Shown in pieces: positions 12,665 to 46,333 of a stretch of DNA of 48,117 nt (its first letter is position 1; each line of letters begins with the position of its first letter). The stretch is taken from positions 1-48,117 of the forward strand of contig CANHQJ010000012.1 in NCBI GenBank assembly GCA_947462875.1. Reading direction: 5' to 3'. The stretch is from Verrucomicrobiia bacterium. Its GTDB lineage: Bacteria > Verrucomicrobiota > Verrucomicrobiia > Verrucomicrobiales > Akkermansiaceae. Position numbers and translations under genes: made by a program. Under the pieces are notes generated by a model. That model did not search any database, was not told where the DNA came from, and worked only from the letters and a program-made list of their open reading frames with translations.

Positions 12665-12684
12665 GGTCATCAGTTCATGGAAAT

Positions 12685-12706
12685 CAGTCATTTTATTGAA
12701 TGATTG
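12685..12706. terminator. 8-bp hairpin after the HAD phosphatase gene
   Basis: CAGTCATT-TTATTG-AATGATTG forms an 8-bp stem with one G-T pair and a 6-nt loop, 20 bp after the phosphatase stop and 27 bp before the sulfatase start. No T-run follows, so a regulatory site for the sulfatase is equally possible. Confidence 0.35.
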
Positions 12707-12732
12707 CATGCTCTTTCCGGGTATCATGGGGG

Positions 12733-29748: not shown

Positions 29749-31176
29749 TTATTTCGCGGCGGGGAGGATTTTTTTCTCCTTCGGCGCGAGGGCGCGCAGT
29801 TCGCTGAGCTTGGCGGCGTGTTCGGCTTTAGGCGCGAGGTTGGTCCATTCGTAGGGATCGGTGACGATGTCGTAGAGTTCTTCATCGCCGCCTTGGTAGT
29901 GGATGTGGCGCCAGCGCTCGGTGCTGATGGCATAGCTGTCGGGCTGATCGAGCTGGGTCATCGCGCAGTGCGGCCATGCGACGGATGGATCGCGCAGCAA
30001 GGGGATGAGGTTGTGGCCGGTGACGTCTGCTTTTTCGGGCAGACCGCACAAGGCGGTGAGGGTGGGGAACAGCGAGGTGAGGTCCACGGGACGCTCGCAG
30101 ACGGAACCCGCTTGGGTGCCTGCGGGTAAAGCAGCGATTCCCTCGGGCACGCGGATCATCAGCGGCACTCGGGCGCAGGCGCGCCAACCGGTGAATTTCT
30201 GCCAATGCTCTTTCTCACCGAGATGCCAGCCGTGATCGCTCCAGAGCACGACGATGGTGTTATCCCGATGCGGGCTTTTTTCCAACGCATCGAGCACGCG
30301 GCCGAGCATGGCATCGGCGTAATGGATCGATGCGAGATAGGCCTGGATGCCTTGTTTCCACTGGCCTTCTTTTTGGATGTGGGCGAAGTAGCGATTGCGC
30401 CCGAGCTTTTGCCCTGCGGGCGGCACGTCATCGAGATCATCGGGGTTGTAGCCTGGGCCGGGTTGGATGGAATCTAACGGAAATGGCGCAAAGTATTTCT
30501 CCGGCACAAACCAAGGCTCGTGCGGGCGATAGAGGCCGCAGGCGAGAAAGAACGGCTTGCCCTGTTTCTTCTGCAGTTGCTCGCCGACCCATTTCGTCAC
30601 GAGCCAATCGCCGCCGTATTCCTCATCGCTGAACTTGAGGGCGGCCCAGTCGGTTTCCTGATACTGCCACTCGCCACCACGGGGGAGACTGACCGGACGT
30701 TTCGGCGGATCGTAAGTGCGGGGGAAGGGATTGTCCGTTTCCTTTTTCGGGAAATACTCATCCCACGATGGCGGATCGATGATGTAGTGCAGCATCTTGC
30801 CCGAGCCCGAGGAATGGTAGCCGTGACGCGAAAAGTATTTCGGCAACAACTCCGCCTCCGGCAGCACCTCGCGCATTTTTTGCCGATTGGTGTAGAGCCC
30901 CGAGCGATGCGGTGCGATGCCGGAAAAAACCGCGGTGCGCGAGGGATTGCAGGAGGCCGCGGGGCAGTAGGCGTTTTTGAACAAAACAGCGCTGGCGGCG
31001 AGTCGATCGATGTTCGGCGTCTTCGTCAGCGGATGCCCGCCGAGGCACCCGATCCAGTCATTCAGATCGTCGACCGCGATGAAGAGCACGTTGGGCTTTT
31101 TTGTCGGAGCATTGTCCGCGCATAGGGATGCGATCGGCGCAAGCAGAAAAAATGTTAGGAAACAAAGCGACTTCAT
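29749..31176 (-). CDS. Secreted sulfatase, iduronate-2-sulfatase-like
   Basis: A 475-residue exported S1-family sulfatase. A signal peptide (MKSLCFLTFFLLAPIASLCA) precedes VLFIAVDDLNDWIGCLGGHP, the N-terminal signature of the iduronate-2-sulfatase-like subgroup. The maturation motif CNPSRTAVFSG places the formylglycine Cys at residue 76. YHSSGSGKMLH, LYRPHEPWFVP and LWSDHGWHLGEKEHW supply further active-site and substrate residues and match that subgroup, which removes 2-O-sulfate from uronic acids and also acts on other glycans. It converges with the Doc gene and lies 14 bp downstream of the beta-helix glycosidase on the same strand, likely in one transcript. Confidence 0.93.
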   Translation of the reverse strand: MKSLCFLTFFLLAPIASLCADNAPTKKPNVLFIAVDDLNDWIGCLGGHPLTKTPNIDRLAASAVLFKNAYCPAASCNPSRTAVFSGIAPHRSGLYTNRQKMREVLPEAELLPKYFSRHGYHSSGSGKMLHYIIDPPSWDEYFPKKETDNPFPRTYDPPKRPVSLPRGGEWQYQETDWAALKFSDEEYGGDWLVTKWVGEQLQKKQGKPFFLACGLYRPHEPWFVPEKYFAPFPLDSIQPGPGYNPDDLDDVPPAGQKLGRNRYFAHIQKEGQWKQGIQAYLASIHYADAMLGRVLDALEKSPHRDNTIVVLWSDHGWHLGEKEHWQKFTGWRACARVPLMIRVPEGIAALPAGTQAGSVCERPVDLTSLFPTLTALCGLPEKADVTGHNLIPLLRDPSVAWPHCAMTQLDQPDSYAISTERWRHIHYQGGDEELYDIVTDPYEWTNLAPKAEHAAKLSELRALAPKEKKILPAAK

Positions 31177-31190
31177 GGCTGAGGTGAATG

Positions 31191-32771
31191 TTAGCGATCC
31201 AACCTGTCACTCTCGGGGAACGATAGCAAGTCAACGAACTCATTTGTTTTGAAAAAATCGGCTTGGCTGATTCTTTTGCCGCCGAGAGTGAGATTGTCGA
31301 ACGCGATGTTGCGAATGCGCGCGTTGGCTTGCCCCCACAGCAATTGTGGTTCGCCGAGAACGCTGGGCGCGGCAATGGAAATGTTTTGAAAAAGGATGCC
31401 TGACAAGTTACCCGCCTCCCGCTTTTCTGCCCGTTTGGAGTAGGGTTCTGGCATGCTCATGCAGAGGAAAAATTGCTGCAACGTGGGTCGTGGGTCCTCG
31501 ATGTTGATGTTGCGGAAGATCACTCCGTTTCCTGCTGCTCCGCCTCCTTCGCCACGCATGTTAAACACCCGCCCGCCGCTCCAGTGATGCCATTTCGCCC
31601 TCGCATAAATGACATCGCAGTCTTCCACGAGCAACTTCCGATCACTGAGATGCGGCAGGGCACTCAACACGAACGAGGAGCCATTCGCATCATTCCATAA
31701 CACGCAACGACGGATCCCCAGACCATTCACGTAGAGCGAATCATCCTGAGTGCGCAGAAAACAATCCTCGATCCGGGTGTTTCCAAAGGGATTGATGCCA
31801 TCGCCATTGACGCGCCACGTGAAAATCTTCGTCCAGCGGACTTCGTTCGGATGACCTTCTTTGTAGGGACTCACCAACATCAGCGAGTGCGTTGCGGAAT
31901 CGGCGATGGTGATTCCTTCCACTCGGGTGTCGGTGGTGCCGATCACTTCGATGGGCCGATACAAGCCGTGGTCTTTTTCTGAGATGGGTGGTGTCAAGTA
32001 TTTCGGATGTTTCAACCGCGCGCCCGACAAAGTGCCATGACCAAAAATGCGAATGTGATGACCATCCGCCCATTTTCTGTTAGAGAGAGTGCCATACACC
32101 ATCGCATCACCGGGGATGTAGTAATTCCGTTGCGCGAGCAGGGGAAAAGCCAAGCCCACATCGTGAACGCCTGGCAGAAAATAGAGTGTGTGCCATGAGC
32201 CATCGGATGGTGGAGTCTCGCCGGGTTTCACGGTCAACACACCCGGATCACCGGGCTTGGGTTTGTTTGCCAACGGCGGATTGGCAAAGAGTGAAATCGT
32301 GTGCAGCGGCGGCCCTTGGAACCCCTTGCCCGTATCCTGCGAATCCATCTGGCCATCGATATCGACGGCGACAAGACAGGCTTGATCGAGTCTGACAATC
32401 GCCTTGCCGCCCTCAATCGTGCAGGCTGATGCCTTGCGCCGTGGATGCACCGCAGCCGTGCGAATCGGTTCGCCATTCACGCGGGCGATTTCAATTTCCA
32501 CGCCGCCCGTGGTCTCGAAATTCACATACGTATGCGTCCAGCCCGCCAGGTGATCGAAATAACCATCCGTGTTTTTCTCGATCATTTTGCAGCTTGTCTG
32601 AAAAGCGAAGGCACTGCGCCACTCACTGCCCGCAGTCATGGCCCGCACCCGCACCTTGTAATGCTCCGAGGCATCCAGTCCAGGCACGGGTGGATACACA
32701 AACACTCCTTCCGCACGGCAGAGCATAGGCGTGAGCAACAGAGTGATGAGGAGCTTGGCGATGCGTTTCAT
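31191..32771 (-). CDS. Secreted right-handed beta-helix glycosidase (GH28/GH49-like)
   Basis: A 526-residue exported protein with signal peptide MKRIAKLLITLLLTPMLCRA; Met 32771 is chosen over 32795 because it starts that peptide. The N-terminal 200 residues form a beta-sandwich (HDVGLAFPLLAQRNYYIPGD resembles the N-domain linker of dextranases). The rest is a parallel beta-helix with IRIFGHGTLSGARL, RVNGDGINPFGNTRIEDCFL and RTQDDSLYVNG; the paired Asp residues in NGDG and QDD match the catalytic Asp set of GH28 polygalacturonases and GH49 dextranases. It probably hydrolyses a galacturonide or alpha-glucan backbone. The family assignment between GH28 and GH49 is unsettled. It sits 14 bp upstream of the iduronate-type sulfatase. 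Confidence 0.75.
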   Translation of the reverse strand: MKRIAKLLITLLLTPMLCRAEGVFVYPPVPGLDASEHYKVRVRAMTAGSEWRSAFAFQTSCKMIEKNTDGYFDHLAGWTHTYVNFETTGGVEIEIARVNGEPIRTAAVHPRRKASACTIEGGKAIVRLDQACLVAVDIDGQMDSQDTGKGFQGPPLHTISLFANPPLANKPKPGDPGVLTVKPGETPPSDGSWHTLYFLPGVHDVGLAFPLLAQRNYYIPGDAMVYGTLSNRKWADGHHIRIFGHGTLSGARLKHPKYLTPPISEKDHGLYRPIEVIGTTDTRVEGITIADSATHSLMLVSPYKEGHPNEVRWTKIFTWRVNGDGINPFGNTRIEDCFLRTQDDSLYVNGLGIRRCVLWNDANGSSFVLSALPHLSDRKLLVEDCDVIYARAKWHHWSGGRVFNMRGEGGGAAGNGVIFRNINIEDPRPTLQQFFLCMSMPEPYSKRAEKREAGNLSGILFQNISIAAPSVLGEPQLLWGQANARIRNIAFDNLTLGGKRISQADFFKTNEFVDLLSFPESDRLDR

Positions 32772-32811
32772 TTTTTTTAGAGTTAAAGTTCGCACCTAGG
32801 CATGTGATGCA

Positions 32812-33511: not shown

Positions 33512-35980
33512 TCACCGCTTGATACTCCGCAATTCCGGTTGGGTGGTGGCGGATTCGATGGCTTTGATGGTGTCCTCGATGGCTCCGACTCTGACAAGAT
33601 TCAACGAACCAGGAAACTCCCCGCGTTCGGTATCGCGGTTGAAGATTTCGATGACTTTTCGCAGCGCGGGAATCTGTGGTTTGGCGGCGGCACCATAGCT
33701 GGCGATGATTTTCATGATCTCGCCCGTGCGGCTCTCGCTGCCGTGACCGCCTTGTGTTTCGGCGAGGGCGGCGGCGGCGGGGAGGCATTCCTTGAAGTGG
33801 TATTTCGCGAGTGCCTTCAATCCCGCCATGCGGATTTCGTTGTTGAACATCGTGTCCGCCGGGCTGGGGTTTTCGACGGCGGCGATGATGGCGGGCGCGA
33901 GCGCGATGACGTCGGCCTCGCTGAGTTGGTTTTCGAAGAAATCACGCAGCGTGGCGCGCGCCATGCCATCGGGATTGGTCGATACCGAGCGGATGGCGGC
34001 GTAGCGCAGTTTGGCATCCATCTTGTTCACTTCTTCCTTGAGCGGACCGCTGAAGACGGCGGCGGCGAGTTGACCGTGGGCGAACTGCACGGGATCCTCC
34101 CAGCGGATGGGCCATAGCGGCTCTGCTGTGGAGACCAGTGCCTTGAGAATGTCTTCGAGCGCGGGCTTGGCGGTGCCTCCCATCTTGCGGATGGCTTCGG
34201 CGGATTTGTAACGCACCCATCGGTCCGTGTGGGAAAGTTGTTTCACCAACACTGGCAATGCCTCGGGAGTGTTGAGCCGGCCTAACGTTTCACAAGCTCC
34301 TTGGATCTGGTGCGGGTTGTTGCCTTCGGCGAGCTTGATCAGCTCGGGAATCATGGTTTTTCCCTCGGGTCGTTGCGCCAATTCCTCTGCTGCCCAACTG
34401 CGGACGATGGGCGACCAGTCATCGAATGCTTTCACCAGTTCCGCAGGTGTCATTTTTTTCCGGTCCAGATCGAATCGCCCGGAGGCGACGACGGCGGCGG
34501 CTTGATCCTTGGTGAGCCAGGTGGCGGGATTCGCATCGCGGCCGGTAATGATGAGCTTGCGCAAGGGCAGGGCATAGGTGAGGATATACGTGGCGGCGGG
34601 GCTGAGACCGTTGTAGCTACTATTTCCATAGTAAGTGTTGTCATCGGTTTTTCCGGGGCTGTATTGTTCGCCGCCGTCATAGGTGAACGAGCCATCGGAC
34701 CGACGCACGAGATCGAAATGCCAGGACGCCTTGCGGAAAAATGCCGCCGCCCCATCCGGTCCGCCGACGGCCGCACCGAGGGAGCTCCACAGGTAGCTGA
34801 AGCCCTGACCGGTGTGGCCGTATTCGCGGTTGGCGTAGCCTGCGGTGGCCATACGGGCGAAAAAGTCCGCCTCTTTCGGTCGGTTGCCGATGGCGCTGAA
34901 CATGACGGCGGTGATGGAATTTTTGCCGTTGTTTTCATGATACGGCCATGGCTCGTGCTCGCCGTAGGGAATCGAACCCTTGCCGGTGAAGTAGCCGAAA
35001 AACCCCGCGGCGCGGGTGATGGCGAGATCGACTTCCGGGCTTTTCACACCGCATTTTTTTCCGAGCACGATGGAGAGATTCGCGGGCAGTCCGGCCATGT
35101 TCACGGGGCCGTACGGCGGCACCGAGCCATTGAATTTCCCCTCCTTCGTGAGTGCGGCAAAGCCGTGTCCGAAGGTGCCGTACATGCTTTGGCCACGGGC
35201 TAACAGGAGCGTGTTCTTGGTGATCGCGGGCATGACTTCGCTGTCCTTGGTGATGAGAAAATACTCGCAGAGGAACAGATTGCGGTAGCCCATGGTCCAA
35301 GAATCGCCCCAGACGAATCCTGCGGGTTTTTTATCAGGGTCGACCTCGATCGCCGCAAGCTTGCGTGCGAACTCCTGCAACTTCGGCAGGTAATCGGGAT
35401 TGCCCGTGGCGAGCAAGGCGAGCCCCTGGACGGGACCGCACCAATCTGTTTTCAGCTCCTCTTTTTCGAGAACCTTGCTGGCTTCTTCGAGAATGCGTTT
35501 CGACTTGGCACAGTTCCAGGGCGCGGTGTCGCTGTAGGTGCCCATGACGGTGAGTTTGATCGCAAGCTCCTGCACTTGCCCGCCGCGCGAAACCGTTAGC
35601 TTGAGAACGCCGCCCTTGGCTTCCGTCTCCGCTTGCTGAATGGCCATGGCGAAGCTTTTGCGCGCGTCGTCATTGAAAAGTCTGCCGTCCGCACCGAGGA
35701 TGACGTCATCCACTTTCACCACGCCATCCGCCGGTGAGCCAGTGCCGACATGGGTGACCAAAATTTGACGACTGGCCAAGGTGGTGCGGCCTTGCGCGGC
35801 ATCGAGATTGTCCGCCGCCTTGGTGTGGATCCAACCGCGCAGGCCGGTGGCACCGAGGTTGTAGGTGAGCTCGCGATCAATGGACTGGATGTCCTTGGTG
35901 AGATCGGGAACCTGCGCATGAAGCGGGCCGGCGATGCCGAGCACGATCAGCAGGGAGCTTTTTTGGAAAAATGATTTCAT
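33512..35980 (-). CDS. DUF6288 secreted protein with PDZ-like domain, alpha/alpha toroid and HEAT repeats
   Basis: An 822-residue exported protein. A signal peptide (LLIVLGIAGPLHAQ) precedes a PDZ-like domain at residues 35-145 (YNLGATGLRGWIHT, HVGTGSPADGVVKVDDVILG, LKLTVSRGGQ). Residues 160-540 look like an (alpha/alpha) toroid (NLFLCEYFLITKDSEVMPAI, YGTFGHGFAAL, GHTGQGFSYLWSSLGAAVGG), as in DUF6288 proteins of planctomycetes and Verrucomicrobia. The last third (residues 545-800) has HEAT-like repeats (VRSWAAEELAQRPEG, VRYKSAEAIRKMGGTAKPAL). The function of the family is unknown; the toroid fold also occurs in polysaccharide lyases and glycosidases. It follows a SASA esterase and a sulfatase on the same strand, the same order as the shorter paralogue at 38596. 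Confidence 0.8.
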   Translation of the reverse strand: MKSFFQKSSLLIVLGIAGPLHAQVPDLTKDIQSIDRELTYNLGATGLRGWIHTKAADNLDAAQGRTTLASRQILVTHVGTGSPADGVVKVDDVILGADGRLFNDDARKSFAMAIQQAETEAKGGVLKLTVSRGGQVQELAIKLTVMGTYSDTAPWNCAKSKRILEEASKVLEKEELKTDWCGPVQGLALLATGNPDYLPKLQEFARKLAAIEVDPDKKPAGFVWGDSWTMGYRNLFLCEYFLITKDSEVMPAITKNTLLLARGQSMYGTFGHGFAALTKEGKFNGSVPPYGPVNMAGLPANLSIVLGKKCGVKSPEVDLAITRAAGFFGYFTGKGSIPYGEHEPWPYHENNGKNSITAVMFSAIGNRPKEADFFARMATAGYANREYGHTGQGFSYLWSSLGAAVGGPDGAAAFFRKASWHFDLVRRSDGSFTYDGGEQYSPGKTDDNTYYGNSSYNGLSPAATYILTYALPLRKLIITGRDANPATWLTKDQAAAVVASGRFDLDRKKMTPAELVKAFDDWSPIVRSWAAEELAQRPEGKTMIPELIKLAEGNNPHQIQGACETLGRLNTPEALPVLVKQLSHTDRWVRYKSAEAIRKMGGTAKPALEDILKALVSTAEPLWPIRWEDPVQFAHGQLAAAVFSGPLKEEVNKMDAKLRYAAIRSVSTNPDGMARATLRDFFENQLSEADVIALAPAIIAAVENPSPADTMFNNEIRMAGLKALAKYHFKECLPAAAALAETQGGHGSESRTGEIMKIIASYGAAAKPQIPALRKVIEIFNRDTERGEFPGSLNLVRVGAIEDTIKAIESATTQPELRSIKR

Positions 35981-36007
35981 AGCGAATGTTCTGACGTAAA
36001 TGGGAGA

Positions 36008-36910
36008 TTATTTCAACAGCTTCTTCATGCCCTCACCCGCGGCATCACCGATGAGAAAGTAGCTTTCGGCGTTGGCGAACCAATGATGTCCATGTGTGGG
36101 GCAGGGCGAAAGTTCCGCAGGTCGCGCGAAGTCCGTGGTCTTGACGAAGAGAGCGTTCTTGATTTTCTTGGTTCCTTTTTCCTGTGCCTGGCGGAAGTCA
36201 TACATATCACCTTCCTTGACCGGTCCGCCATTGCCCAGCTCTCCGACCACGACAGGCAAGTTCGGTGCGTTGAATTCCTTGCGCAGATCGCTCACCAAAT
36301 TGACGAGGTTATCCGCGTATTCCGCGATCGCCGGTTTCTCGCACATATCGTTCCAGCCCTGCTGCCAATAAAAACCCGCTAACTCGTATTTCTCCTCTCC
36401 CAGCGCCGCCAGAGCCGCGCGCACTTCATCCACCATTTTCGTGTAGTATGGCCCCACCTGTCCGCCGGAGCTGGGCGGGCGGAAATCGACAAACAAGCTC
36501 TTGCCGCCCCAGGCCGTCTTGATCAGCAACACGGGCTCTTGAAAAAAATCACCCATCACCATGCCGAAGCCCAGTTCAGGACCGATGTGGCTGCTGTTGC
36601 CATAACCCGTATAGCCCACGGTCAGTCCGCCCTTGCGAACCGTGTCGCCCACCTTGAAGGAAATCTGCACATCGTCCCGCACCACCCACTCGCCTTTGTC
36701 GTTCTTGAGCGGCTTCATCTTTTGTGCGCTCTTCGAATGCTGCATAGCCCACACCAAATTGCCCTTGCCGCCATTGTAATCTCTTTCCCCATCCATGGAA
36801 ACCACCCCCTGGCCCTCCATGTTCGATTGTCCGGCGAGGATGAAGACTTTGATCGGTTTCGCGTCCAATGGGGAGAGGGCGAAAGTGAATAGCAGGGCGA
36901 TGGATTTCAT
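36008..36910 (-). CDS. Secreted SASA-family carbohydrate acetylesterase
   Basis: A 300-residue exported esterase of the SASA family (PF03629), SGNH-like. A signal peptide (MKSIALLFTFALSPLDA) precedes KVFILAGQSNMEGQG, which holds catalytic Ser29. Block LLIKTAWGGKSLFVDFRPPS and WQQGWNDM follow, and the C-terminal HGHHWFANAESYFLIG carries the catalytic His. Such enzymes remove O-acetyl groups from glycans or sialic acid, here most likely from a decorated polysaccharide. Met 36910 starts the signal peptide; the frame is open to 36940. It lies 27 bp upstream of the long DUF6288 gene and follows a sulfatase after 267 bp that hold no supported gene. Confidence 0.9.
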   Translation of the reverse strand: MKSIALLFTFALSPLDAKPIKVFILAGQSNMEGQGVVSMDGERDYNGGKGNLVWAMQHSKSAQKMKPLKNDKGEWVVRDDVQISFKVGDTVRKGGLTVGYTGYGNSSHIGPELGFGMVMGDFFQEPVLLIKTAWGGKSLFVDFRPPSSGGQVGPYYTKMVDEVRAALAALGEEKYELAGFYWQQGWNDMCEKPAIAEYADNLVNLVSDLRKEFNAPNLPVVVGELGNGGPVKEGDMYDFRQAQEKGTKKIKNALFVKTTDFARPAELSPCPTHGHHWFANAESYFLIGDAAGEGMKKLLK

Positions 36911-37177
36911 GAGTGGTTGGAATATGTGTGACGAAATCACTACTTCCGGCGCGGGTGATTTGTTTCATCGATTCTTATCATGGGAGGTGGCAGGATGCTG
37001 AAGAATCAACAATACTTCGGGCAAAGGAACAAAACGATATCAGGCGAGTTGACGATCACCGGTCAGGAAATCAGCCGATCATTGCCATCATGCCGCAAGT
37101 TGTTCCCATCACCGGCGGAATTTTCCCGCTTATCGCCGATTCCTATTCAGGTTCTCGGAATCCCACGATTGCTGAAA

Positions 37178-38494
37178 TCATTTTCCCAGATCATCAAAAA
37201 CGGCTTGCAGTGATTTGCGCGCCGCGGCTTCTTTCTCGGGATCGCTGTTTTCGTTAGGTCGGGCGGGGTCTTCCCAGAGCGGGACAACGCGGCGGAGCTG
37301 ATCCTTGTTGTCTAACATGTAATCGTTGTTTCTCACTTGCCGGCTGTTCGCATGCTGGATGTGAATCCACATGCGGGGCTGGCCGGGCTTGCCGAGGAGC
37401 TGCGGTACGAAGGAGCGTCCGTGGATGGATTGCTCAGGTTGTTTGGCACCGGTGAGTTCGCAGATCGTGGGGAAGAAGTCGGTGAGATCGATGAGGTCCT
37501 CGCAGACGCTGCCCGCCTTGATTTTTCCCGGCCAGCGGACAAGGAGCGGCACATGGGTGCCGCGGTCGGTCATGGTGCCCTTGCCGCCAGCGATGGATTT
37601 TCCCTCTCCCCATGCATGGACGAGACCGGTATCGGTGCCGTTATCCGCAAGGAAAATGACGATGGTGTTTTCGGCGATGCCGAGGTCATCGAGGGTCTGA
37701 AGCATGGTGCCGATTTGCTTGTCGAGGTAGGCGAGCATATCCGGGAAATACTTCGGATCACCTTTGTGGGCCGCGTTGGGTGCGCGATAGGTTTTTTCCT
37801 TGCTGTCCGGCGTGGGTTCCCACGGGAAATGCGGCAGGTAGGTCGAATAGTAGGCGAGGAAAGGTTTCTTCGCTTTTGCGTTGGTCTTGATGAAATCGAG
37901 ATAGACATCGAGGTCCACGTCCGGGCCGTAGCGGTCTTTGATTTCATCGGCGATGATGCGATCGTCGCGCATCAGATAGGGATTCCAAAAGCGGGTGGTT
38001 TTCCCGCCCTTTTCATCGAAGATGCACCAGGTCTGGTAATGATCGAAGCCGAACTCGCGGATGGTGTTGTGCTTGTGCTCCAGCGAGACGTGCCATTTTC
38101 CGACAATCTGCGTGGCGTAGCCGTGCTGCTTGAGCTGGCGGGGGAAGCTCGGCTGGGATGGCTTCAGATAGATGTTCTCCTGCTTCTTGCTGTGAAGCAC
38201 AACATTCAGGCCGTTTTGGAAAGGGTAGCGACCGGTGAGCAGCGAGCCGCGCGAGGGGGAGCAGTAGGGGTTTGAGAAACAGCGGGAGAAGCGCATGCCT
38301 TCCTTAGCCAAGAGGTCGATGTGCGGCGTCTTGTGCGAGGTGCCACCGTAGGCGGACAGGCACTCGATGCCGAGATCGTCCGCCAGGATGAGCACGATGT
38401 TAGGCCTGGTAGCGTCTTGAGCCAAGGCACAGCTGTTGGTCCCGGCGCAGAGCGAGAGAGCAAAGATGGTTGTTTTGAGGATGAGGGTTTTCAT
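37178..38494 (-). CDS. Secreted sulfatase
   Basis: A 438-residue exported S1-family sulfatase. A signal peptide (TTIFALSLCAGTNSCALA) precedes PNIVLILADDLGIECLSAYG. The maturation motif CSPSRGSLLTGRYP places the formylglycine Cys at residue 78. GKWHVSLEHKH, TYLPHFPWEPTPDS and FLADNGTDTG carry other active-site residues; YGGTSHKTPHIDLLAKEGMR is the usual block after the first motif. It is at the shorter end of the family. It leads the second sulfatase-SASA-DUF6288 unit in the direction of transcription (37178, 36008, 33512). Substrate unknown, probably a glycan sulfate. Confidence 0.93.
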   Translation of the reverse strand: MKTLILKTTIFALSLCAGTNSCALAQDATRPNIVLILADDLGIECLSAYGGTSHKTPHIDLLAKEGMRFSRCFSNPYCSPSRGSLLTGRYPFQNGLNVVLHSKKQENIYLKPSQPSFPRQLKQHGYATQIVGKWHVSLEHKHNTIREFGFDHYQTWCIFDEKGGKTTRFWNPYLMRDDRIIADEIKDRYGPDVDLDVYLDFIKTNAKAKKPFLAYYSTYLPHFPWEPTPDSKEKTYRAPNAAHKGDPKYFPDMLAYLDKQIGTMLQTLDDLGIAENTIVIFLADNGTDTGLVHAWGEGKSIAGGKGTMTDRGTHVPLLVRWPGKIKAGSVCEDLIDLTDFFPTICELTGAKQPEQSIHGRSFVPQLLGKPGQPRMWIHIQHANSRQVRNNDYMLDNKDQLRRVVPLWEDPARPNENSDPEKEAAARKSLQAVFDDLGK

Positions 38495-38595
38495 GTGCGC
38501 CTGTATCTGCGCTTAATCGTATTCAAGATGCAGGGACTACTCAAGGCTCTTGATCGCTTATGGCACAGGGTATGCCGTGTGCTCCGCGGCAATGC

Positions 38596-40122
38596 TCATT
38601 TCGGCAGGACTTTGCCGGTGATGACAAGGTTACGTTTTGGGATGGTGTAAATGAAAGCTACCACGGAAGATGCCGTCATCCGCGCCGATGAATCGTAGCC
38701 CGAGCTATCCCGATTGGGCTGATAGTAGAAAGTTCCATCGCCGCATTGTGCCATGGTGAACCACCAACGGTTGGCGTCCATCAGCTTGCGGAAATTTTTT
38801 GGGTCGAGGTTGGCCCCCAATGCCTCATAGCCCATGCCCATGGGCGGCGAGGCATGGGTATCGGGAAAACTTTGCGGATGCTTGCCGATGACGTCCGTGT
38901 GCTTTCGGGCCAGACTGCGGTAAGATTCGCTGTATGCCGGGGCAAGAAAGCAGGCGATACCTGCGGCACCTGTCCTTCCCATGTCCGCCCACTCATCCGG
39001 ACCGCTGGCAGAATCGCCATAGCCGACGTAGCCGTTCGCTCCCGTGCCACGCTTGAGGAAATCGTATGCCGCGTTGTGGCGTTTGCTATCGATCTCGATG
39101 CCACAGCGGTGCATCAGGGCATATGTGAGCGCACCCTGTGCGGTAATCATGGCGATGGGGCCGTAGCCCTCGAATCCGGGATTATGTCCCCAGCCGCCAT
39201 GAGCTTGTTTCGGCCCTTTGGGATAGTCGTCCGGGTGTGATTCCTTGACCTTCGGATTGATCTGGGACATGTCGAGGTATTGGCCTTGATAAAGTATGTC
39301 GCGAATTTTCTCTAACTCGGGCAATACCCAATCTTCCTTTGTGATGAAATAGTACTCGCAGAGCACAATCGCGGTAGCCATGTATGTCCAGTTCATCAGA
39401 CCAAACTTCCTTGTTTCTTCATCGAGCGATTTTATCGAATCGCAGAGGTGGCGCAAGTTGCGCTTTACAGGAGGAAGGTATTTCTTCTCGCCTGTTCCTA
39501 GCATCGCTAGGGCGGCGAAGGCGTTGTTCACCGGATCACCGAAGGATCCGTTATCGTCTTGTTGTTCGCTGATGTAATCAAGCAACTCAGCGAGGATTTT
39601 TCCGGATTTCGGGCAATCGGCGGGGAAGGTATCCGCATAGCTGCCGTATTCCTTTCCGATATCGAGCTCCACGTCCATTGTTTCCTTGCCGCGCTTCACC
39701 ATGAGCTTGAGTTTGCCGGTGGCTGATTTTGCCTGACAGGCTTCTAGGACTTCCGCCAACTCAGCTACCGGACCTTCCGCGCCAAAGACTTCCATGCCAT
39801 AACCATCGAGGTGGGGCTTTTTGAATTTTTTCCCATCGACACCGATGATGAGGTCATCGATCTTGATTTCCTTGTTCGCTGGCGATTTTTTAAAAACATG
39901 CTTCACGAGAAGTGCTTTTGGTTCATTCTCAACCAATTCGGCGCGGATTCCTGTAAGTCCCAGATTGTAGTACCAGCCAGGAACCTCGGCATCGGGCCCG
40001 GAGTCGGCTCGTTGGCTCCAAGGTTGATCGCCGTTGTAGTCAACTTGAGCCTGCAATGTGCCAGAAAAAGCAGCGATTATTGCGGTAAATGCGATGGATG
40101 AATAGATGTTGTTGGTCTTCAT
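38596..40122 (-). CDS. DUF6288 secreted protein with PDZ-like domain and alpha/alpha toroid
   Basis: A 508-residue exported paralogue of the protein at 33512, without the HEAT region. The signal peptide is SIAFTAIIAAFSGTLQAQ; Met 40122 is chosen for it, although the frame runs to 40242. The PDZ-like domain spans residues 45-150 (YNLGLTGIRAELVENEPKA, VKHVFKKSPANKEIKIDDLI). The toroid begins near 165 (ILAELLDYISEQQDDNGSFG, LCEYYFITKEDWVLPELEKI, GYGPIAMITAQGALTYAL). Shared blocks with the paralogue are NLG.TG.R, CEY..ITK and G.NG..GYGD-like stretches. No catalytic residues can be assigned. It lies between a PL6 lyase upstream and a sulfatase downstream on the same strand. Confidence 0.8.
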   Translation of the reverse strand: MKTNNIYSSIAFTAIIAAFSGTLQAQVDYNGDQPWSQRADSGPDAEVPGWYYNLGLTGIRAELVENEPKALLVKHVFKKSPANKEIKIDDLIIGVDGKKFKKPHLDGYGMEVFGAEGPVAELAEVLEACQAKSATGKLKLMVKRGKETMDVELDIGKEYGSYADTFPADCPKSGKILAELLDYISEQQDDNGSFGDPVNNAFAALAMLGTGEKKYLPPVKRNLRHLCDSIKSLDEETRKFGLMNWTYMATAIVLCEYYFITKEDWVLPELEKIRDILYQGQYLDMSQINPKVKESHPDDYPKGPKQAHGGWGHNPGFEGYGPIAMITAQGALTYALMHRCGIEIDSKRHNAAYDFLKRGTGANGYVGYGDSASGPDEWADMGRTGAAGIACFLAPAYSESYRSLARKHTDVIGKHPQSFPDTHASPPMGMGYEALGANLDPKNFRKLMDANRWWFTMAQCGDGTFYYQPNRDSSGYDSSARMTASSVVAFIYTIPKRNLVITGKVLPK

Positions 40123-40195
40123 GGTTGTTGGGTTGATAGAATTGCTCAGTGGAAAATACTGCGTATCGTAGCCGGAAATCGGTATAGCTTTATTC

Positions 40196-41638
40196 TCATT
40201 TTTCGCCTTCCATAGCGGTAAGGAGACCGACGTCCTCGGCACCGAGAGGTTTGGCTTTGTTCTGCTTCATATCATACTGAAATGCGCCAACCGTTCCATA
40301 TTCCGGACGAGCGTTGCCTGCCAGATCGATGGCTAATTCGTTCGTGTTCATTCCCGTTCGCAGGGCTGTGAGCGTCTGTGCGGTTGGTAGCAGACGTTCG
40401 CCAGTCCTCTTGGAAAAAGCGGAGCTTTGCTGAAGACCCGTGCGCGGCGCGATTCCCAGAACGCCTTGGTAGATATTGCCCTGCCATGTCCATTTCTCCG
40501 GCTCCTGGTTTTTCACGAATGCGATCAGCCCATTTTTGGCACCCTTTTCCTGGTAGAAAATATTGTTGGCGATGGTGCAGTCCTTTGGTACTGTTCCTTC
40601 AGGGTAATTGGAATGGTTGAGACCTATCTGGAAGGCGTAGCCACAGTTGACGAATGTGTTGTGTGCCACGAGGGCCCGCTCGACACGGGAATAGAACTCG
40701 TCCGCCGTTCCATCCATCATGGCGAGTGCTGGGCCGCTCAAGCCATCAAAGTAGTTATTGATCACCACCTGGTCTGTTCCTTGCAGTCGCACGCCGCCAC
40801 TCCCGCCAAGAAACCAGTTGCCGGTGACCACGTTGCGATGACCAATGCGCAAGACCAATTCACCGCGACATTGGGAGAACGTGTTGCCACGGAGAAGATT
40901 TCCGTTAGATTTTACAGAGACGATTTCCGATTCGCCATCGCAGCGTTCAAACAAGTTGGATTCGATCACGTTTCCGGTTTCCCCCTCCTTGGGGTTCCCA
41001 CGGGAAATAAGCTGGATCGTTTCGTAGCCGTTGCCGGTCTTGCCTTTGGGAATGTCCCGGAAATGGTTGTGATGGATGTGGTGGGATTCTTTTTGGTTGG
41101 TGACTTCGATGCGCATCAACTGGCAATCTCGATCCTTCTCGCGGCTGTTCTCTTTCTTTTCGAACAAGCAGCGATCGATCTCGATACTCCGGCTCTTCGT
41201 GTCTACTCTTAGCCATTGCGCTGCTTTGAGATTGTTCATATAGCATCGGCTAATTCGGCAAGAGATGCCATTCTTGACGGCGATTCCTCCGTTGTCTTTG
41301 AAACGGAAGCCGATCAGGGACAGATGCTCACCTCCAAGGGTAAGCTGATTCAGCAACTCAACGCCACCGAGGGTCTCGGCACGGATGACGATCGGGAGTC
41401 CTTGCGATCCTTTTCCCTTGAGATGACATGGTTCAATGTATGTACCTTTCTTGAGTAGTATCGTTGTGCCGGCCTTTGCCTTGGCTGCCGTCTCCTGCAA
41501 CTCTTTGATCGATGTCACTGTTGTAACGATTGCCTGCTCAGTATCCGGCATCGGAGTCTTCTCTCCTCCATGCAACGGTGAAAACGTCAAGAGCGTTAGA
41601 ATTGGCAAAAGCGATAGAGTAGAAAATACTGTTTTCAT
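40196..41638 (-). CDS. Secreted polysaccharide lyase family 6 (chondroitinase B/alginate lyase-like)
   Basis: A 480-residue exported beta-helix lyase with signal peptide VFSTLSLLPILTLLTFSPLHG. The PL6 core (chondroitinase B type, PF14592) shows NGYETIQLISRG and RCDGESEIVSVKSNGNLLRG, with Ca2+-binding Glu236 and Glu238 and the likely base Lys243. RGELVLRIGHRNVVTGNWFL carries the likely acid Arg264. The Lys-Arg spacing of 21 matches that of the Pedobacter chondroitinase B active site. PL6 enzymes cleave alginate or dermatan sulfate by beta-elimination, so a uronic-acid polymer is the probable substrate. The gene is more AT-rich than many neighbours. It lies 73 bp before the DUF6288 gene and just after a DUF1552 remnant. 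Confidence 0.87.
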   Translation of the reverse strand: MKTVFSTLSLLPILTLLTFSPLHGGEKTPMPDTEQAIVTTVTSIKELQETAAKAKAGTTILLKKGTYIEPCHLKGKGSQGLPIVIRAETLGGVELLNQLTLGGEHLSLIGFRFKDNGGIAVKNGISCRISRCYMNNLKAAQWLRVDTKSRSIEIDRCLFEKKENSREKDRDCQLMRIEVTNQKESHHIHHNHFRDIPKGKTGNGYETIQLISRGNPKEGETGNVIESNLFERCDGESEIVSVKSNGNLLRGNTFSQCRGELVLRIGHRNVVTGNWFLGGSGGVRLQGTDQVVINNYFDGLSGPALAMMDGTADEFYSRVERALVAHNTFVNCGYAFQIGLNHSNYPEGTVPKDCTIANNIFYQEKGAKNGLIAFVKNQEPEKWTWQGNIYQGVLGIAPRTGLQQSSAFSKRTGERLLPTAQTLTALRTGMNTNELAIDLAGNARPEYGTVGAFQYDMKQNKAKPLGAEDVGLLTAMEGEK

Positions 41639-41691
41639 ACCATAGGATTCATTTGGCTATTCCGTAACTAACCCATTAACCAAGCTCGCGT

Positions 41692-42000
41692 TTAGACCCG
41701 CTCAAGGCCGCCTTTATGACCGGCGAATTCGTTGGTGTCGATGCCCATTCGTTTCAGGATGGTGACGAAGAGATGAGCGTGGGGGAGTTCGTGACTGTCG
41801 AGGTCGCTTGCCCAACCGGAGTCGTCCGCGATTCCCGCACAGGCTTGATTGTCTTCGTTGCCTTTTCCGAACTTGAGGTAACGGCCGTTTTGGAAGCCGA
41901 GGTTTTTGCCGCCTGCGGAGATGATGGGGTAGTTGAGCGAAAGGTGGAAGCTGCTCGAGGCCGAACCGTGCATGGCGAAGTTGTTGTCGAGCATAGACAA
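41692..42000 (-). pseudogene. C-terminal fragment of a DUF1552 protein
   Basis: The frame gives 102 residues, beginning SMLDNNFAMHGSASSSFHLS and continuing with PIISAGGKNLGFQNGRYLKF and LFVTILKRMGIDTNEFAGHK, which match the C-terminal end of DUF1552 proteins (PF07586, common in planctomycetes and Verrucomicrobia). The expected upstream part of more than 300 residues is missing; instead, a SASA esterase gene ends 3 bp before it. The TTG at 42000 is a chance start. It is probably the residue of a gene whose front was replaced by the esterase gene. Confidence 0.65.
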
Positions 42001-42003
42001 AGC

Positions 42004-43797
42004 CTATTTCATCAGTTTCAGGTTCGCTTCCGCAAACGCCTTGCCCATCTGGGCGAAGATTTTGGCACTGCCCAGATAGTGGTAACCGCCATTGGAAGCA
42101 CCTTTGATGGCCTCCCAGTCCTTGGGCGAAACGACTTCTTCCAAGGCAAGTTCGAGCTTTTTCCGGTCATCCTTGGTGATGGCTTCGATTCGCATGTCAA
42201 CCGCTCCGTAACGTTCAGGAGAATTGTCTTCATATTGGTCATTCGCATAGACCGCCAATACGTTTTTTCCTTTCTTCAAATACTGGACCTGCTCTTTTCC
42301 GATTACGATGGAGCCGTAAACGGGTTGATCCTGCCACCAGATGTAGGTGTGGATTTTGTGGCCGTTCAAGTAAACATGGAATCCCTGTCGCGCCAGATTC
42401 GCGATGCGATACGATGCGAAGTCGAGCTCGTCCACTTCAAATGTTGTGCGCATCAGAAGGAATTCACCAGCCCCCCATGGGGAGGGGAATTTGTCCAAGG
42501 TGATGCCGTTGTGTTTCCAGACGCCTTTGCCGATGGGGGCCTTGCCCGATGTCCATTTGCTGTCATCGAACTCGGGCATGAACCAATTCTCCATACCGGC
42601 AGGCAAGGTGATGTCGCGGAAGCGTCTGGGAGTGTATTCTGTCATCTTGTCCTTCGCTTCTGTGGCATCAACGGTGGTGAATCTCCATGTCCGTTCCTCC
42701 GGAAGCGGTTTGCCAAGCGGCTTCCAGTGGTTTCCCCATTTCCATTCCGTGTCGATGGTTCCATCCGCCGCTAATTTGTGTGAAGTACCGATGATGCTAT
42801 CGTATTGGCCCTTCTTCTCCAGGGCAGCTTCCATGGTAGGATCCCAGAAGGGAGCGGTTGGCACAGCGATCACATTGCCCTTGAACTCGGGCATGTCGGC
42901 AGGCGCGGCCATGGCTTTGCGGAAAATTTCATTCTCGCTCTCACCGCCGACTCCCAGCACGCCGATCACGAATGGCATTTTCGGAGCCGAGAGATCTTTG
43001 CGAACATCGCGGATGAAGTGGGCCAAAAGACGCGAGTATTCGTCGAATTTTCCCGGCTGATCGGGACCGGGATAGGTAGTCCCATCGACCAGGTCGTTGA
43101 AACCCTGGAGCCAGACAAAGCCAGCCAGCTCGAAGCCCGACTTCTCGTCGTATTCCGGACAGACCCGCTTGGGATCTGCCAGAACCTTTTTCACATGTTC
43201 GATCATCATGCGGTAAAACACCCCGGAGGCGGCATCCTTGTCTTCCTGCCATTTTTTCCGTTCCTCAAGCTTGGGAACTCCGTGAGCACCCTGGGGATGT
43301 TGATCCCATACATCCTGGATCTGCTTGGGCAGCTTGTATGGCCCGGCACTGGGTGGACGGAATTCGGTGTTGAGCGACCTGCCGCCCCAGGCGGTTTTGA
43401 TGATCAAGATCGGCTCCTTCAGTTCTTTCTCCATATAGATTCCGAAAGTGAACTCGGGGCCGATTTTGCTACATAACTTAGTGGGTTGATCATCACGCGC
43501 GCCGAAGCCCGCGGTCAGCTTGCCCAGGCCCTCGCCATTCGCACTGCCATCATACGGGCCTGTCAGATAGGACATCCAGACCTTGTCACATACCCGTGGA
43601 GTGCCATCGGGATTGCGCATCTCCTTGAGCAAGGGTGCCGTCAGCGGATCCTTGCCTATGTAGTCAAACGTGCTGATTTCCGCATGTCCTTCCATGTTGG
43701 ATTGCCCCGCGAGGATGAAGACCTTGAGCGGCTTGGCGTAAGAGAACGGCGAGAGGGCGCACAGCAGCGCTGTGGCAAGGATTACGGTTGGTTTCAT
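42004..43797 (-). CDS. Secreted SASA-family acetylesterase with C-terminal beta-sandwich
   Basis: A 597-residue exported esterase, about twice the size of the one at 36008. A signal peptide (MKPTVILATALLCALSPFSYA) precedes KVFILAGQSNMEGHAE with catalytic Ser33. LIIKTAWGGRSLNTEFRPPS and VWLQGFNDL match the SASA family; the catalytic His is expected near DTEWKWGNHWKPLG or in the missing tail of the domain, so it is not certain. Residues 375-520 form a beta-sandwich like the N-domain of family 2 glycosidases (MRTTFEVDELDFASYRIANL, GFHVYLNGHKI, GKNVLAVYAND). It probably deacetylates the locus polysaccharide. It follows the EF-hand sulfatase by 22 bp. Confidence 0.85.
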   Translation of the reverse strand: MKPTVILATALLCALSPFSYAKPLKVFILAGQSNMEGHAEISTFDYIGKDPLTAPLLKEMRNPDGTPRVCDKVWMSYLTGPYDGSANGEGLGKLTAGFGARDDQPTKLCSKIGPEFTFGIYMEKELKEPILIIKTAWGGRSLNTEFRPPSAGPYKLPKQIQDVWDQHPQGAHGVPKLEERKKWQEDKDAASGVFYRMMIEHVKKVLADPKRVCPEYDEKSGFELAGFVWLQGFNDLVDGTTYPGPDQPGKFDEYSRLLAHFIRDVRKDLSAPKMPFVIGVLGVGGESENEIFRKAMAAPADMPEFKGNVIAVPTAPFWDPTMEAALEKKGQYDSIIGTSHKLAADGTIDTEWKWGNHWKPLGKPLPEERTWRFTTVDATEAKDKMTEYTPRRFRDITLPAGMENWFMPEFDDSKWTSGKAPIGKGVWKHNGITLDKFPSPWGAGEFLLMRTTFEVDELDFASYRIANLARQGFHVYLNGHKIHTYIWWQDQPVYGSIVIGKEQVQYLKKGKNVLAVYANDQYEDNSPERYGAVDMRIEAITKDDRKKLELALEEVVSPKDWEAIKGASNGGYHYLGSAKIFAQMGKAFAEANLKLMK

Positions 43798-43819
43798 GTT
43801 CTTTGATTGGTGGTTGATG

Positions 43820-45385
43820 TTAATTGGTTGATGGCGTGACGAACTCCTTGCGGCTGACTTTGCCGTCGCCGTCTTTGTCGAAGCGCTTGTAACGGGCTTC
43901 GAGATCAGGTCCGCCGTTTTGCCCGGCTTTGTATTCTTGCAGTGTGAGAAACTCGTCTTTGTTGCTGTCCCAACGGGTGAATGGAATGCTGCGGTCTTTG
44001 GCAGGAGTCTTGGATTTGGGCGTTGCCTTTTCCGGTTCGCCCTCTTGTGTTTCTGCCAAACAGCCAGGATCCGCCTTGGTGGGCAGTGTCGCGTTCCAAT
44101 CGAGTGCCTGCTTGGTCAGGCGCGCGACGATTTCGGGATGATCTTTTGACTGATCTCGGGCGATGTCTTCGGAGCGGTTTGATTTCAAATTGTGCAGTTC
44201 GACCTTCTGGCCATCGAAGGTCGTCACCAGTTTCCAATCCCCGTCTCGTACCGCCAAATCAGGCCAGAAATCGGGATCTTTTTTATTGGCGTTGATCCGC
44301 CAGAAAATGGGCTGGGTGCGCCGGACGGATTCGCCCTTGAGAGCCGGTAGCAAATTTTCGCCGTCGCCATTGGCATCGGGCGGCGGGGTGACTCCGGCGG
44401 CGGCGCAGAAGGTGGGGAGCAAATCCACCGCCGTCAGGACCGTGGTATCATTTTTCACGCCAGCCGGAGCATGGACCGGCCACCGCACGATGAACGGCAC
44501 GCGCACGCCACCTTCGAAGAGACTGGTTTTTTGTCCCCGCATGCCGCCGGTTTCACCGACATTGTAGTGATTGCGATACTTGCCGGATTCGCCTTTGTCG
44601 CCCTCCTTGAGTTTTGCAGGGCCGTTATCGCTGGAAAAAACCACCAGGGTGTTCTGCGCGATTCCGCACCGCTCCAGCGCATCGAGGATGATGCCGACCT
44701 TGTTGTCGCCGTCGGTGATGACCGCCGCATAGACCTGTTGCCGGGGGGCGAGATGTTTCCAGCGCGCCATGGATTCGTCCGACGGGCTGTGGGCCAAATG
44801 GCTCTCATGCAGCCAGACGTTCACATAGAACGGACGGTCTTTGTTCGCCTCGATGAATTTCACCGCCTGATTGGGAATATCGTTGCCATACGGTCCGACT
44901 TTTGGCCCCGGCCCGTGATAGACCGCCGACTCGTCAAAGCCGTAGTCCGTCATGGTCGGTGCGCCTTCCCCCAGGTGCCATTTCCCATAGTGTCCCGTGC
45001 GGTAGCCCGCTGCTTTGAGCAAGCGTGGTGTCGTGGGTGCCTTGGGGTCCAACCAGTCCGGCATTTCCGGAGGCTTGGCGACACCGAAGACCGTGTTGAT
45101 TCCGAAGCGACCCGGAAATCGCCCCGTCATGACCGCCGCACGACTGGGCGAGCAGATCGGACTGAGCACATTGAACTGCTGGAAATCAATGCCCTCACTG
45201 GCCAGCTTGTCGAGGCGCGGAGTTTTCAGCCACGTGTTGCCGTGACAGGACAGATCGCCCCAGCCCCAATCGTCGGCATAGATGAAGACGATGTTGGGCT
45301 TGGGTGCATTCTCGGCTTGGACACTCGGGAGCGATGCGAGCAACAGAGAGCTGAGAAATGCAGAAAGGAAGCGAGTTGATTTCAT
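43820..45385 (-). CDS. Secreted sulfatase with C-terminal EF-hand pair
   Basis: A 521-residue exported S1-family sulfatase. A signal peptide (FLSAFLSSLLLASLPSVQA) precedes PNIVFIYADDWGWGDLSCHG. The maturation motif CSPSRAAVMTGRFPGRFG places the formylglycine Cys at residue 78; GKWHLG and FSSDNGPAK follow. After the catalytic domain a tail of about 50 residues holds two EF-hand loops: DSNKDEFLTLQEY and DKDGDGKVSRKEF, the second a full canonical calcium loop. Such tails are seen in some planctomycete and Verrucomicrobia sulfatases, where they may bind calcium for stability or attachment. It lies 21 bp downstream of the alpha/beta-hydrolase gene and 22 bp upstream of the SASA gene, so all are probably co-transcribed. 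Confidence 0.93.
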   Translation of the reverse strand: MKSTRFLSAFLSSLLLASLPSVQAENAPKPNIVFIYADDWGWGDLSCHGNTWLKTPRLDKLASEGIDFQQFNVLSPICSPSRAAVMTGRFPGRFGINTVFGVAKPPEMPDWLDPKAPTTPRLLKAAGYRTGHYGKWHLGEGAPTMTDYGFDESAVYHGPGPKVGPYGNDIPNQAVKFIEANKDRPFYVNVWLHESHLAHSPSDESMARWKHLAPRQQVYAAVITDGDNKVGIILDALERCGIAQNTLVVFSSDNGPAKLKEGDKGESGKYRNHYNVGETGGMRGQKTSLFEGGVRVPFIVRWPVHAPAGVKNDTTVLTAVDLLPTFCAAAGVTPPPDANGDGENLLPALKGESVRRTQPIFWRINANKKDPDFWPDLAVRDGDWKLVTTFDGQKVELHNLKSNRSEDIARDQSKDHPEIVARLTKQALDWNATLPTKADPGCLAETQEGEPEKATPKSKTPAKDRSIPFTRWDSNKDEFLTLQEYKAGQNGGPDLEARYKRFDKDGDGKVSRKEFVTPSTN

Positions 45386-45406: not shown

Positions 45407-46333
45407 TCATAGCTTGTTTTCCAAAAAGCGCAGCAGCGTCGCTTCATCGATTGCCCCAGCCGCGCCGTGACCTTCGCCCAGGACCTTGTAGTGAACGATG
45501 GTGCCATCGAGGTAACTGAAGATCTCAAGCTTGCCGGCGACGCTGCTCGGCTTTTCCTGTTTCTCGCCCCGGTATCCCATGGCTTTGGCCCACAGGAAAA
45601 CGGACTCCTCCGCAGCGACGAAGCCGAGCTTTCCATTCTTCGCAGGTATCACAGAGGAAGGCCCGCCGTGATAAGGAATCAGGCGATCTTCCGCTCCCGA
45701 GATATTCATGATTCGTTTGCCGTTGCTGGGTGTCGCAACGGTCTGGTAGCTATTGTCGTCGCCCTTGGCTTTGAAGTTCCGCCCATCGTGTTGCAGCACG
45801 TTGAGCGGGCTGACGGCGGTCACGTAGTTGCGGATGTTCGGCAAGCGACTCTCGATGGCCAGTTGATTCGCCAACGCCGCGCCATTCGAGTTGCCCATGA
45901 TGGTGAAATTATCCGGCTGAACGTTGTCACAAGCCGCGAGCTTTTCGACGATGGCTTCGACGAACTTGCGATCATCCGCCTTCGACCGCTCGGCCGAGAT
46001 GTTCCAGCTCTTCAGATAGCCGTCCGGAAACACCATCACATAACGCGTCGCCATAGTCGGGCGCTGTTTGAGGAAGCCGTTCATCGCGCTCCGGGCGCCC
46101 CCGCCGTTGCCGTGGAGAAAGATCAAGACGGGCAACTTCCGGTTGTCCGGGTTTGCTGGCACGTTTACGTGATAGGGGCGCGGGAACTCCTGCTCCTGAG
46201 ACCACGATTGCCGGATGAAATACTCGCCGGAGGAGAGCTTGGCCGTGGGCGCATCGCCTGCGTGAAGCGCGGCCAGAGGCGCGAGCAGCAGGGCGGTGAG
46301 GAGTGTGAGGGTCAGTTTCATGCGGCCATTCAT
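45407..46333 (-). CDS. Secreted alpha/beta-hydrolase esterase (polyhydroxybutyrate depolymerase/LpqC-like)
   Basis: A 308-residue exported serine esterase. A signal peptide lies in MKLTLTLLTALLLAPLAALH (from Met5; Met1 overlaps the upstream stop as ATGA and is chosen for coupling). The oxyanion block VLIFLHGNGGG and the nucleophile elbow MGNSNGAAL (GxSxG) are clear. A catalytic Asp is likely in SGAEDRLIPYHGG and the His in LGEGHGAAG. Related esterases include feruloyl and acetylxylan esterases and PHB depolymerases, so it may remove ester groups from a polysaccharide. It is translationally coupled to the glycosidase upstream. Confidence 0.87.
   Translation of the reverse strand: MNGRMKLTLTLLTALLLAPLAALHAGDAPTAKLSSGEYFIRQSWSQEQEFPRPYHVNVPANPDNRKLPVLIFLHGNGGGARSAMNGFLKQRPTMATRYVMVFPDGYLKSWNISAERSKADDRKFVEAIVEKLAACDNVQPDNFTIMGNSNGAALANQLAIESRLPNIRNYVTAVSPLNVLQHDGRNFKAKGDDNSYQTVATPSNGKRIMNISGAEDRLIPYHGGPSSVIPAKNGKLGFVAAEESVFLWAKAMGYRGEKQEKPSSVAGKLEIFSYLDGTIVHYKVLGEGHGAAGAIDEATLLRFLENKL

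Follow-up and report, generated by a model that had tools for sequence, protein, structure and literature searches.

DUF6288, a protein family paired with SASA carbohydrate esterases in Verrucomicrobia and Planctomycetes, as a candidate glycan-active enzyme

DUF6288 (PF19805), a protein family without an assigned function, is probably an uncharacterised family of glycan-active enzymes that is paired with deacetylases of the SASA family (PF03629), the conserved core of the arrangement probably being SASA plus DUF6288. The family came to attention in a stretch of 48,117 nucleotides from a Verrucomicrobiia bacterium of the Akkermansiaceae (assembly GCA_947462875.1, contig CANHQJ010000012.1; hereafter the window), which forms the first 48117 contig bases of a 3.95 Mb genome (G000) and carries the gene order sulfatase, SASA, DUF6288 twice on the minus strand. 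In Verrucomicrobia and Planctomycetes, SASA and DUF6288 are neighbours on the same strand, many of them abutting or nearly so, or parts of one polypeptide, and the sulfatases beside the pair are mostly local additions. These bacteria degrade persistent algal polysaccharides with gene clusters that hold many unnamed proteins. DUF6288, which in some genomes numbers dozens of copies and in several cases is fused to a deacetylase, is a concrete candidate for a missing chain-acting enzyme, and such an assignment, if true, would aid the annotation of glycan clusters in lake genomes.

Both DUF6288 proteins of the window, DUF6288a (33512..35980, minus strand, 822 residues; 442.6 bits to PF19805, plus HEAT_2) and DUF6288b (38596..40122, minus strand, 508 residues from ATG 40122; 191.3 bits), match nearly the whole PF19805 model and score over its curated cut-off of 26.3 bits. 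Two SASA esterases, SASAa (42004..43797, minus strand, 597 residues; PF03629, 65.9 bits) and SASAb (36008..36910, minus strand, 300 residues from ATG 36910; 99.2 bits), are likewise over the family cut-off, carry the GQSNMEG serine motif, and in the case of SASAb end 27 bases before the start of DUF6288a. The lengths of 508 and 300 residues that had been proposed from the letters alone follow from the two ATGs; alternative GTG starts are also open at 40242 (DUF6288b) and 36940 (SASAb).

The linkage was followed among related loci, which were collected by a pattern scan of bacterial genomes with a DUF6288a alignment. Of at least 553 relatives, the 80 best were used. Their record titles, of which some are plainly wrong, place them mostly in lake-type Verrucomicrobia and Planctomycetes, and several loci come from one assembly. 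SASA and sulfatase neighbours were identified with profiles built for this analysis, and adjacency was scored in the 54 loci having at least 600 bases on both flanks. SASA was adjacent or fused to DUF6288 in 27 of these 54 loci, and a sulfatase was adjacent in 2. Over the 80 loci, 40 of the 64 counted SASA genes lay within 1 kb of DUF6288, all 40 of them on the same strand; SASA density was 2.9 per 10 kb within 1 kb, dropped about tenfold beyond 2.5 kb and stood at 0–0.33 beyond 4 kb, and sulfatase density had no comparable peak near DUF6288. The SASA and DUF6288 frames mostly abut or slightly overlap, and because locus frames run from stop to stop, the true intergenic gaps are somewhat longer than measured. 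SASA preceded DUF6288 33 times, versus 12 times for the reverse order. Eight of eight proteins beside or fused to DUF6288 scored over the Pfam SASA cut-off, six of them being of a large DUF2341–LamG–SASA form; such proteins, of about 1000–1270 residues, lie directly beside DUF6288 in loci L105, L098, L141, L059, L109 and L093.

Whole-genome counts were taken with a proximity limit of 5 kb in four genomes, namely the window's own (G000) and G152, G153 and G150. In total, 56 of 96 DUF6288 genes lie near a SASA gene where about 8 were expected, and 55 of the 56 share its strand. By genome, the counts were 6/10 in G000 (0.6 expected, P 1e-5; 4/8 outside the window), 8/15 in G152 (1.3 expected, P 1e-5), 16/26 in G153 (2.1 expected, P 9e-12) and 26/45 in G150 (3.8 expected, P 5e-17), where the binomial P values assume independent genes and clustered genes are not independent. 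The two window genes from which the finding arose are part of the G000 count, and the other three genomes were chosen for their many copies, each being reached through a locus with a known SASA neighbour, so that one gene in each was not blind; G150, at 12.6 Mb, is possibly a mixed assembly. Pieces of DUF6288 were merged (12 matches became 10 genes in G000, 27 became 26 in G153 and 47 became 45 in G150), as were SASA pieces at most 900 bases apart on one strand and two sulfatase pieces in G153. A stricter control was provided by the sulfatases, taken as the glycan-gene comparison in G000, G152 and G153, of which 12/62, 9/56 and 3/40, respectively, lay near SASA; at 5 kb the difference between DUF6288 and sulfatases gave Fisher values of 5.5e-3 in G152 and 3.2e-6 in G153. 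The possibility raised with the original prediction, that DUF6288 genes might have no more SASA neighbours than random genes, was therefore not borne out. The expansion of the family to 47 (G150), 27 (G153) and 15 (G152) matches per genome fits substrate diversification.

Fusion of the two domains tells in the same direction as their proximity, with single frames that carry both SASA and DUF6288 in six loci. DUF6288 comes first in L153 (1187 residues), L154 (3077), L155 (2327) and in L095 and L129 (1227 each), the last two perhaps being one protein in two related assemblies, and SASA comes first in L060 (3327 residues); Pfam finds both domains in L060 and L095. As both domain orders occur, fusion seems to have happened at least twice. 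In L153 an extra SASA gene lies directly upstream of the fusion, and in L104 DUF6288 is joined to a stretch that matches the DUF2341–LamG part before the contig ends.

What DUF6288 might contribute was approached through structure prediction. An AlphaFold2 model of DUF6288a, built from 33 sequences, reached a predicted local distance difference test score (pLDDT) of 89.8 and a predicted template modelling score (pTM) of 0.90, with a signal-like N-terminus, a PDZ-like domain (about residues 40–145), an (alpha/alpha)6 toroid (about 150–487) and a HEAT arc (about 490–820); DUF6288b consists of the PDZ-like domain and the toroid, and the Pfam scan found no HEAT match in it. The toroid that the original prediction had expected also formed when folded alone (pLDDT 80, pTM 0.87, low-confidence loops). 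Compared with solved structures, it aligned, among the matches listed, with GH76 (Z 21.9, root-mean-square deviation 3.2, 274 residues aligned) and with cellobiose 2-epimerases, squalene-hopene cyclase and GH88, all near Z 20, and the best Foldseek E value for the toroid was 1.3e-3, an AGE epimerase standing at rank 1. With the full model, the Foldseek matches listed were HEAT/ARM-type repeats, and the toroids surfaced in the VIA-align comparison. Sequence searches of the PDB gave PDZ and HEAT parts only, and no toroid, among the matches listed for DUF6288a, and two chance-level rows for DUF6288b (best E 0.039). The class of fold can thus be regarded as secure, the assignment to a family not.

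Four residues stand out on the toroid. His272, Tyr290, Tyr339 and His389 are kept in 98–101 of 102 a-type, 4/4 b-type and 5/5 divergent rows, and among 46 representatives below 70% identity they are the sole non-glycine residues of the long-loop face that are kept at 90% or more. We assigned the loops to faces ourselves from predicted secondary structure, placing the long loops on one side of the toroid and the short turns opposite; by this assignment, columns kept at 90% or more number 12/112 in the proposed-face loops, 2/16 in the opposite turns and 7/169 in the helices. Asp429 is kept in 97/102 a-type and 4/4 b-type rows and is Asp or Glu in 4/5 divergent rows.

SASA esterases remove O-acetyl groups. 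In the proposed mechanism, SASA would strip these from an acetylated, deoxy-sugar-bearing glycan, and the deacetylated chain would then become the substrate of DUF6288 at the open face of the toroid, where His272, Tyr290, Tyr339 and His389, perhaps with Trp228, would form the working set; the PDZ-like domain and the HEAT arc would serve to hold either partner or chain, and the sulfatases, PL6-type protein, rhamnosidase and apiosidase would be substrate-specific extras of this cluster. Candidate chemistries for DUF6288 include hydrolase, lyase or epimerase. We give about even odds to the fuller version of this proposal, namely an unrecognised carbohydrate-active family with a His/Tyr site in its toroid, coupled by operon or fusion to an O-acetyl esterase in a two-step module of deacetylation and chain cleavage. 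The idea of a backbone-acting enzyme, put forward in the original prediction, thus gains support from the predicted toroid fold and from the conservation of the His/Tyr residues, and the function itself stays at the level of suggestion.

Several observations weigh against DUF6288 as a SASA-paired glycan enzyme. Half of the informative loci (27/54) have no adjacent SASA, and the ten neighbours scanned in SASA-less loci include several ordinary metabolic genes (permease, dehydratase, amidohydrolase, enolase-type enzyme) beside fucosidases (GH95, GH29) and other glycan-type genes; no SASA was found near the divergent DUF6288 gene (7434-11864) of the gut-type locus L061. Near Z 20 the toroid is matched about equally well by many unrelated (alpha/alpha)6 proteins, so the fold names no chemistry, and hhalign gave a probability of 6% for squalene-hopene cyclase and 0.6% for GH76, in a comparison of shallow alignments run without a positive control (inputs from five of six cyclase loci and four of five GH76 loci). 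The mean top-residue frequency is 0.59 in the proposed-face loops, 0.59 in the opposite turns and 0.55 in the helices, and several of the proposed-face loops are of low confidence in the toroid-only model. Lastly, Glu/Asp341 is kept in 100/102 a-type and 3/4 b-type but 0/5 divergent rows.

Some of the same observations would suit a non-catalytic DUF6288, a scaffold or glycan-binding protein whose PDZ-like and HEAT parts bind partners such as SASA while the toroid binds the chain, which we regard as unlikely. PDZ and HEAT domains are indeed present, LamG, Ig-like, PA14 or cadherin-like domains occur in several large members of the family, no carboxylate pair is common to all compared groups, the toroids tied in fold include non-glycan proteins, and the average conservation of the proposed active-face loops does not exceed that found elsewhere in the toroid. 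Set against this, the face residues kept at 90% or more are two histidines and two tyrosines, even in divergent members, which looks catalytic; DUF6288b has no HEAT match; and up to 47 matches per genome are commoner for enzymes.

A further and rather doubtful explanation makes DUF6288 a polysaccharide lyase or sugar epimerase that applies His/Tyr acid-base chemistry to uronic-acid chains, in the manner of toroid lyases or AGE-type epimerases. It would account for a His/Tyr set kept without an acid pair common to all groups and for the place of AGE epimerases among the best folds, and a PL6-type gene is present in the window. The glycan context of the family speaks otherwise. In a census that covered 88 of the 136 operon-like neighbours, with long proteins truncated to 600 residues and the first 25 of 114 families listed, neutral-sugar glycoside hydrolases were the most frequent. 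GH2 was counted 6 times, GH95, GH29 and GDSL 5 times each and GH78 4 times among the 88. This fits the fucose- and rhamnose-rich substrates with which aquatic Verrucomicrobia are described in the accessible parts of two papers (PMC13174399, PMC5615132). If the products were unsaturated uronides, genes of the GH88 family would be expected; a search at E up to 1e-5 found none in G000 and G152 and one in G153, which argues against a lyase with such products. Moreover, toroid lyases have a beta-sheet half, and none is seen in the DUF6288a model.

The repeated order from which the work started was considered as a possible functional unit of sulfatase, SASA and DUF6288. The sulfatases concerned, sulfatase a (43820..45385, minus strand, 521 residues; PF00884, 145.3 bits) and sulfatase b (37178..38494, minus strand, 438 residues; 184.6 bits), both score over the PF00884 cut-off and carry the modification motif CSPSR. 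The in-window partners are distant: DUF6288a and DUF6288b are 25.6% identical, whereas DUF6288a has relatives elsewhere at 75–91%; SASAa and SASAb are 34% identical, whereas SASAb has relatives elsewhere at 79.5–89%; the sulfatases are 31% identical to each other, and the best sulfatases of other loci reach 36–37%. The in-window partner ranks 105/110 for DUF6288a, 24/41 for SASAb and 13/38 for sulfatase b, and the closest relatives of DUF6288b lie in L054 and L055 (57–62% identical). SASA genes 79.5–89% identical to SASAb lie directly upstream of DUF6288a in L062, L064 and L127, the nearest SASAb-like gene of L069 (80%) ends 1.2 kb upstream of it, and relatives of SASAa (77–79% identical) adjoin DUF6288a in L067 and L070. 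It follows from the distance between in-window partners that the two runs were assembled from separate lines, and tandem duplication of a block was rejected, the partners not being nearest relatives, in keeping with the earlier judgement that this is no recent tandem copy. The two runs do not go back to a single ancestral triad.

The claim that the order itself is kept stands weakly inside the window, where 6 of the 90 possible orders of the six gene labels repeat some triple and 1 is the order observed, and fails for an inherited block; the first run is moreover broken by a DUF1552 remnant and a PL6 gene. A contiguous triad occurs in 5 of 101 scanned loci (the window, L062, L105, L109 and L114), and in L062 the SASA is 89% identical to SASAb, while the sulfatase falls outside the six best matches of sulfatase b. 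The best relative of sulfatase b among the fetched loci reaches 37%, against 89% for SASAb and 91% for DUF6288a. Sulfatases were in excess near DUF6288 in the window's own genome (5/10, 1.35 expected, P 0.006; 3/8 outside the window), without a clear excess in G152 (4/15, 1.6 expected, P 0.065) and with none in G153 (1/26, 1.5 expected), so that the neighbourhood comparison held for sulfatases in one genome and not clearly in two others. With a sulfatase adjacent in 2/54 loci as well, the triad was rejected as a general unit, and we consider it improbable as the functional unit; of the proposed glycan module, the SASA–DUF6288 pair survives and the sulfatase part is weak. Equally improbable is that nothing more than shared membership of glycan clusters brings SASA and DUF6288 together: glycan genes in general are frequent among the operon neighbours, but sulfatases, which are glycan genes too, are less often near SASA, the SASA and DUF6288 frames mostly abut in a preferred order, and several fusions occur in both domain orders.

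Beyond the pair, the window carries further genes of the cluster. The gene identities, order and minus-strand orientation first read from the letters were confirmed by Pfam and the list of open reading frames. Sulfatase a additionally bears a C-terminal EF-hand (EF-hand_1, 25.6 bits). The DUF1552 remnant (41695..42003, minus strand), comprising about 100 C-terminal codons without a start codon, lies between SASAa and the PL6 gene and has no Pfam match itself; by phmmer, two pieces align to the C-terminal end of a frame that is intact in L069 (1163-2542; whole-sequence E 1.2e-7, best piece 0.0019) and is PF07586/DUF1552 at 9e-68. The PL6-type beta-helix protein (40196..41638, minus strand; PF14592, 166.6 bits), a relative of alginate lyase and chondroitinase B, matches AlyGC at 1.5e-31 and chondroitinase B at 2e-16 in the PDB. 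On one side of the runs lie, all on the minus strand, an esterase-like alpha/beta-hydrolase (45407..46333; NCBIfam PHA-depolymerase-type, 1.7e-16, below cut-off) and an apiosidase-like glycoside hydrolase (46330..48117; PF13204, 151.9 bits), which is cut by the window edge and whose open frame extends to contig base 49074 (L042). On the other, also on the minus strand, lie a probable beta-helix glycosidase of 534 residues (31191..32795) with weak similarity to dextranase and isopullulanase (best PDB match dextranase 6nzs, 7.3e-6; no match in the Pfam scan), sulfatase c (29749..31176; PF00884, 150.9 bits) and, about 1 kb further on, an alpha-L-rhamnosidase (26980..28710; PF17389, 197 bits). A third SASA gene lies beyond the window edge (L042 4735-6096, contig about 48735-50096; 61% identical to SASAa over 359 residues), which means that the cluster continues past that edge. 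The stretch belongs to a polysaccharide-degradation cluster, and its products are probably secreted; hydrophobic, signal-peptide-like N-termini were noted by eye in 9 of 9 printed proteins (both DUF6288, both SASA, sulfatases a and b, the PL6-type protein and those ending at 31191 and 45407).

Other loci of the family offered observations of their own. In L043, a single open frame (11119-13998) encoding a sulfatase and a PhoD-like phosphatase directly follows the DUF6288 gene; in the related L062, a PSD/cytochrome-type gene (PF07631 and others) lies downstream of DUF6288; in L061, the DUF6288 neighbours are metabolic, a malic enzyme and a thiamine pyrophosphate (TPP) enzyme. The related genus g2, with genomes of 2.2–3.3 Mb and probably Akkermansia-like, has a divergent DUF6288 protein of about 1460–1510 residues in 9 of the 15 genomes listed.

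In the open-access papers searched, subscription papers and preprints being outside the search, DUF6288 and PF19805 were not mentioned, and the words DUF and toroid were not found in the accessible part of a survey of planctomycetal carbohydrate enzymes (PMC11131199). Among the nearest described systems are the clusters of aquatic Verrucomicrobia for fucose- and rhamnose-containing glycans, which, in the accessible parts of these papers, comprise GH29, GH78, GH95 and sulfatases (PMC13174399, PMC8857213, PMC5615132); they come from the same kind of organism as the window, and no SASA, DUF or esterase term occurs in PMC8857213. As for the family itself, the PF19805 model spans the PDZ-like part and the toroid, and not the HEAT arc. 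The GH76 alpha-1,6-mannanases (6shd, 4boj) share the (alpha/alpha)6 toroid at 7–12% identity in the rows shown, and their adjacent catalytic Asp pair has no counterpart among the conserved DUF6288 columns. AGE-type epimerases share the fold as well (cellobiose 2-epimerase Z about 20, YihS Z 13–14, with the full model), at 6–12% identity in the rows shown and 16% in the top Foldseek row; both they and DUF6288 have conserved histidines, a likeness at the level of fold and not a residue-level superposition. Squalene-hopene cyclase has a similar fold (Z about 20) and was matched by Pfam at 8e-5 in one divergent DUF6288 member, but DUF6288, unlike the cyclase, is probably secreted and sits in glycan clusters. 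Among the SASA carbohydrate esterases, the solved relatives are 2apj, a putative esterase, and 1zmb, which is related to acetylxylan esterases, and the form common beside DUF6288 is the DUF2341–LamG–SASA protein of about 1000 residues. The SASA proteins of the window share the GQSNM motif with PF03629 and differ from those relatives by their linkage or fusion to DUF6288.

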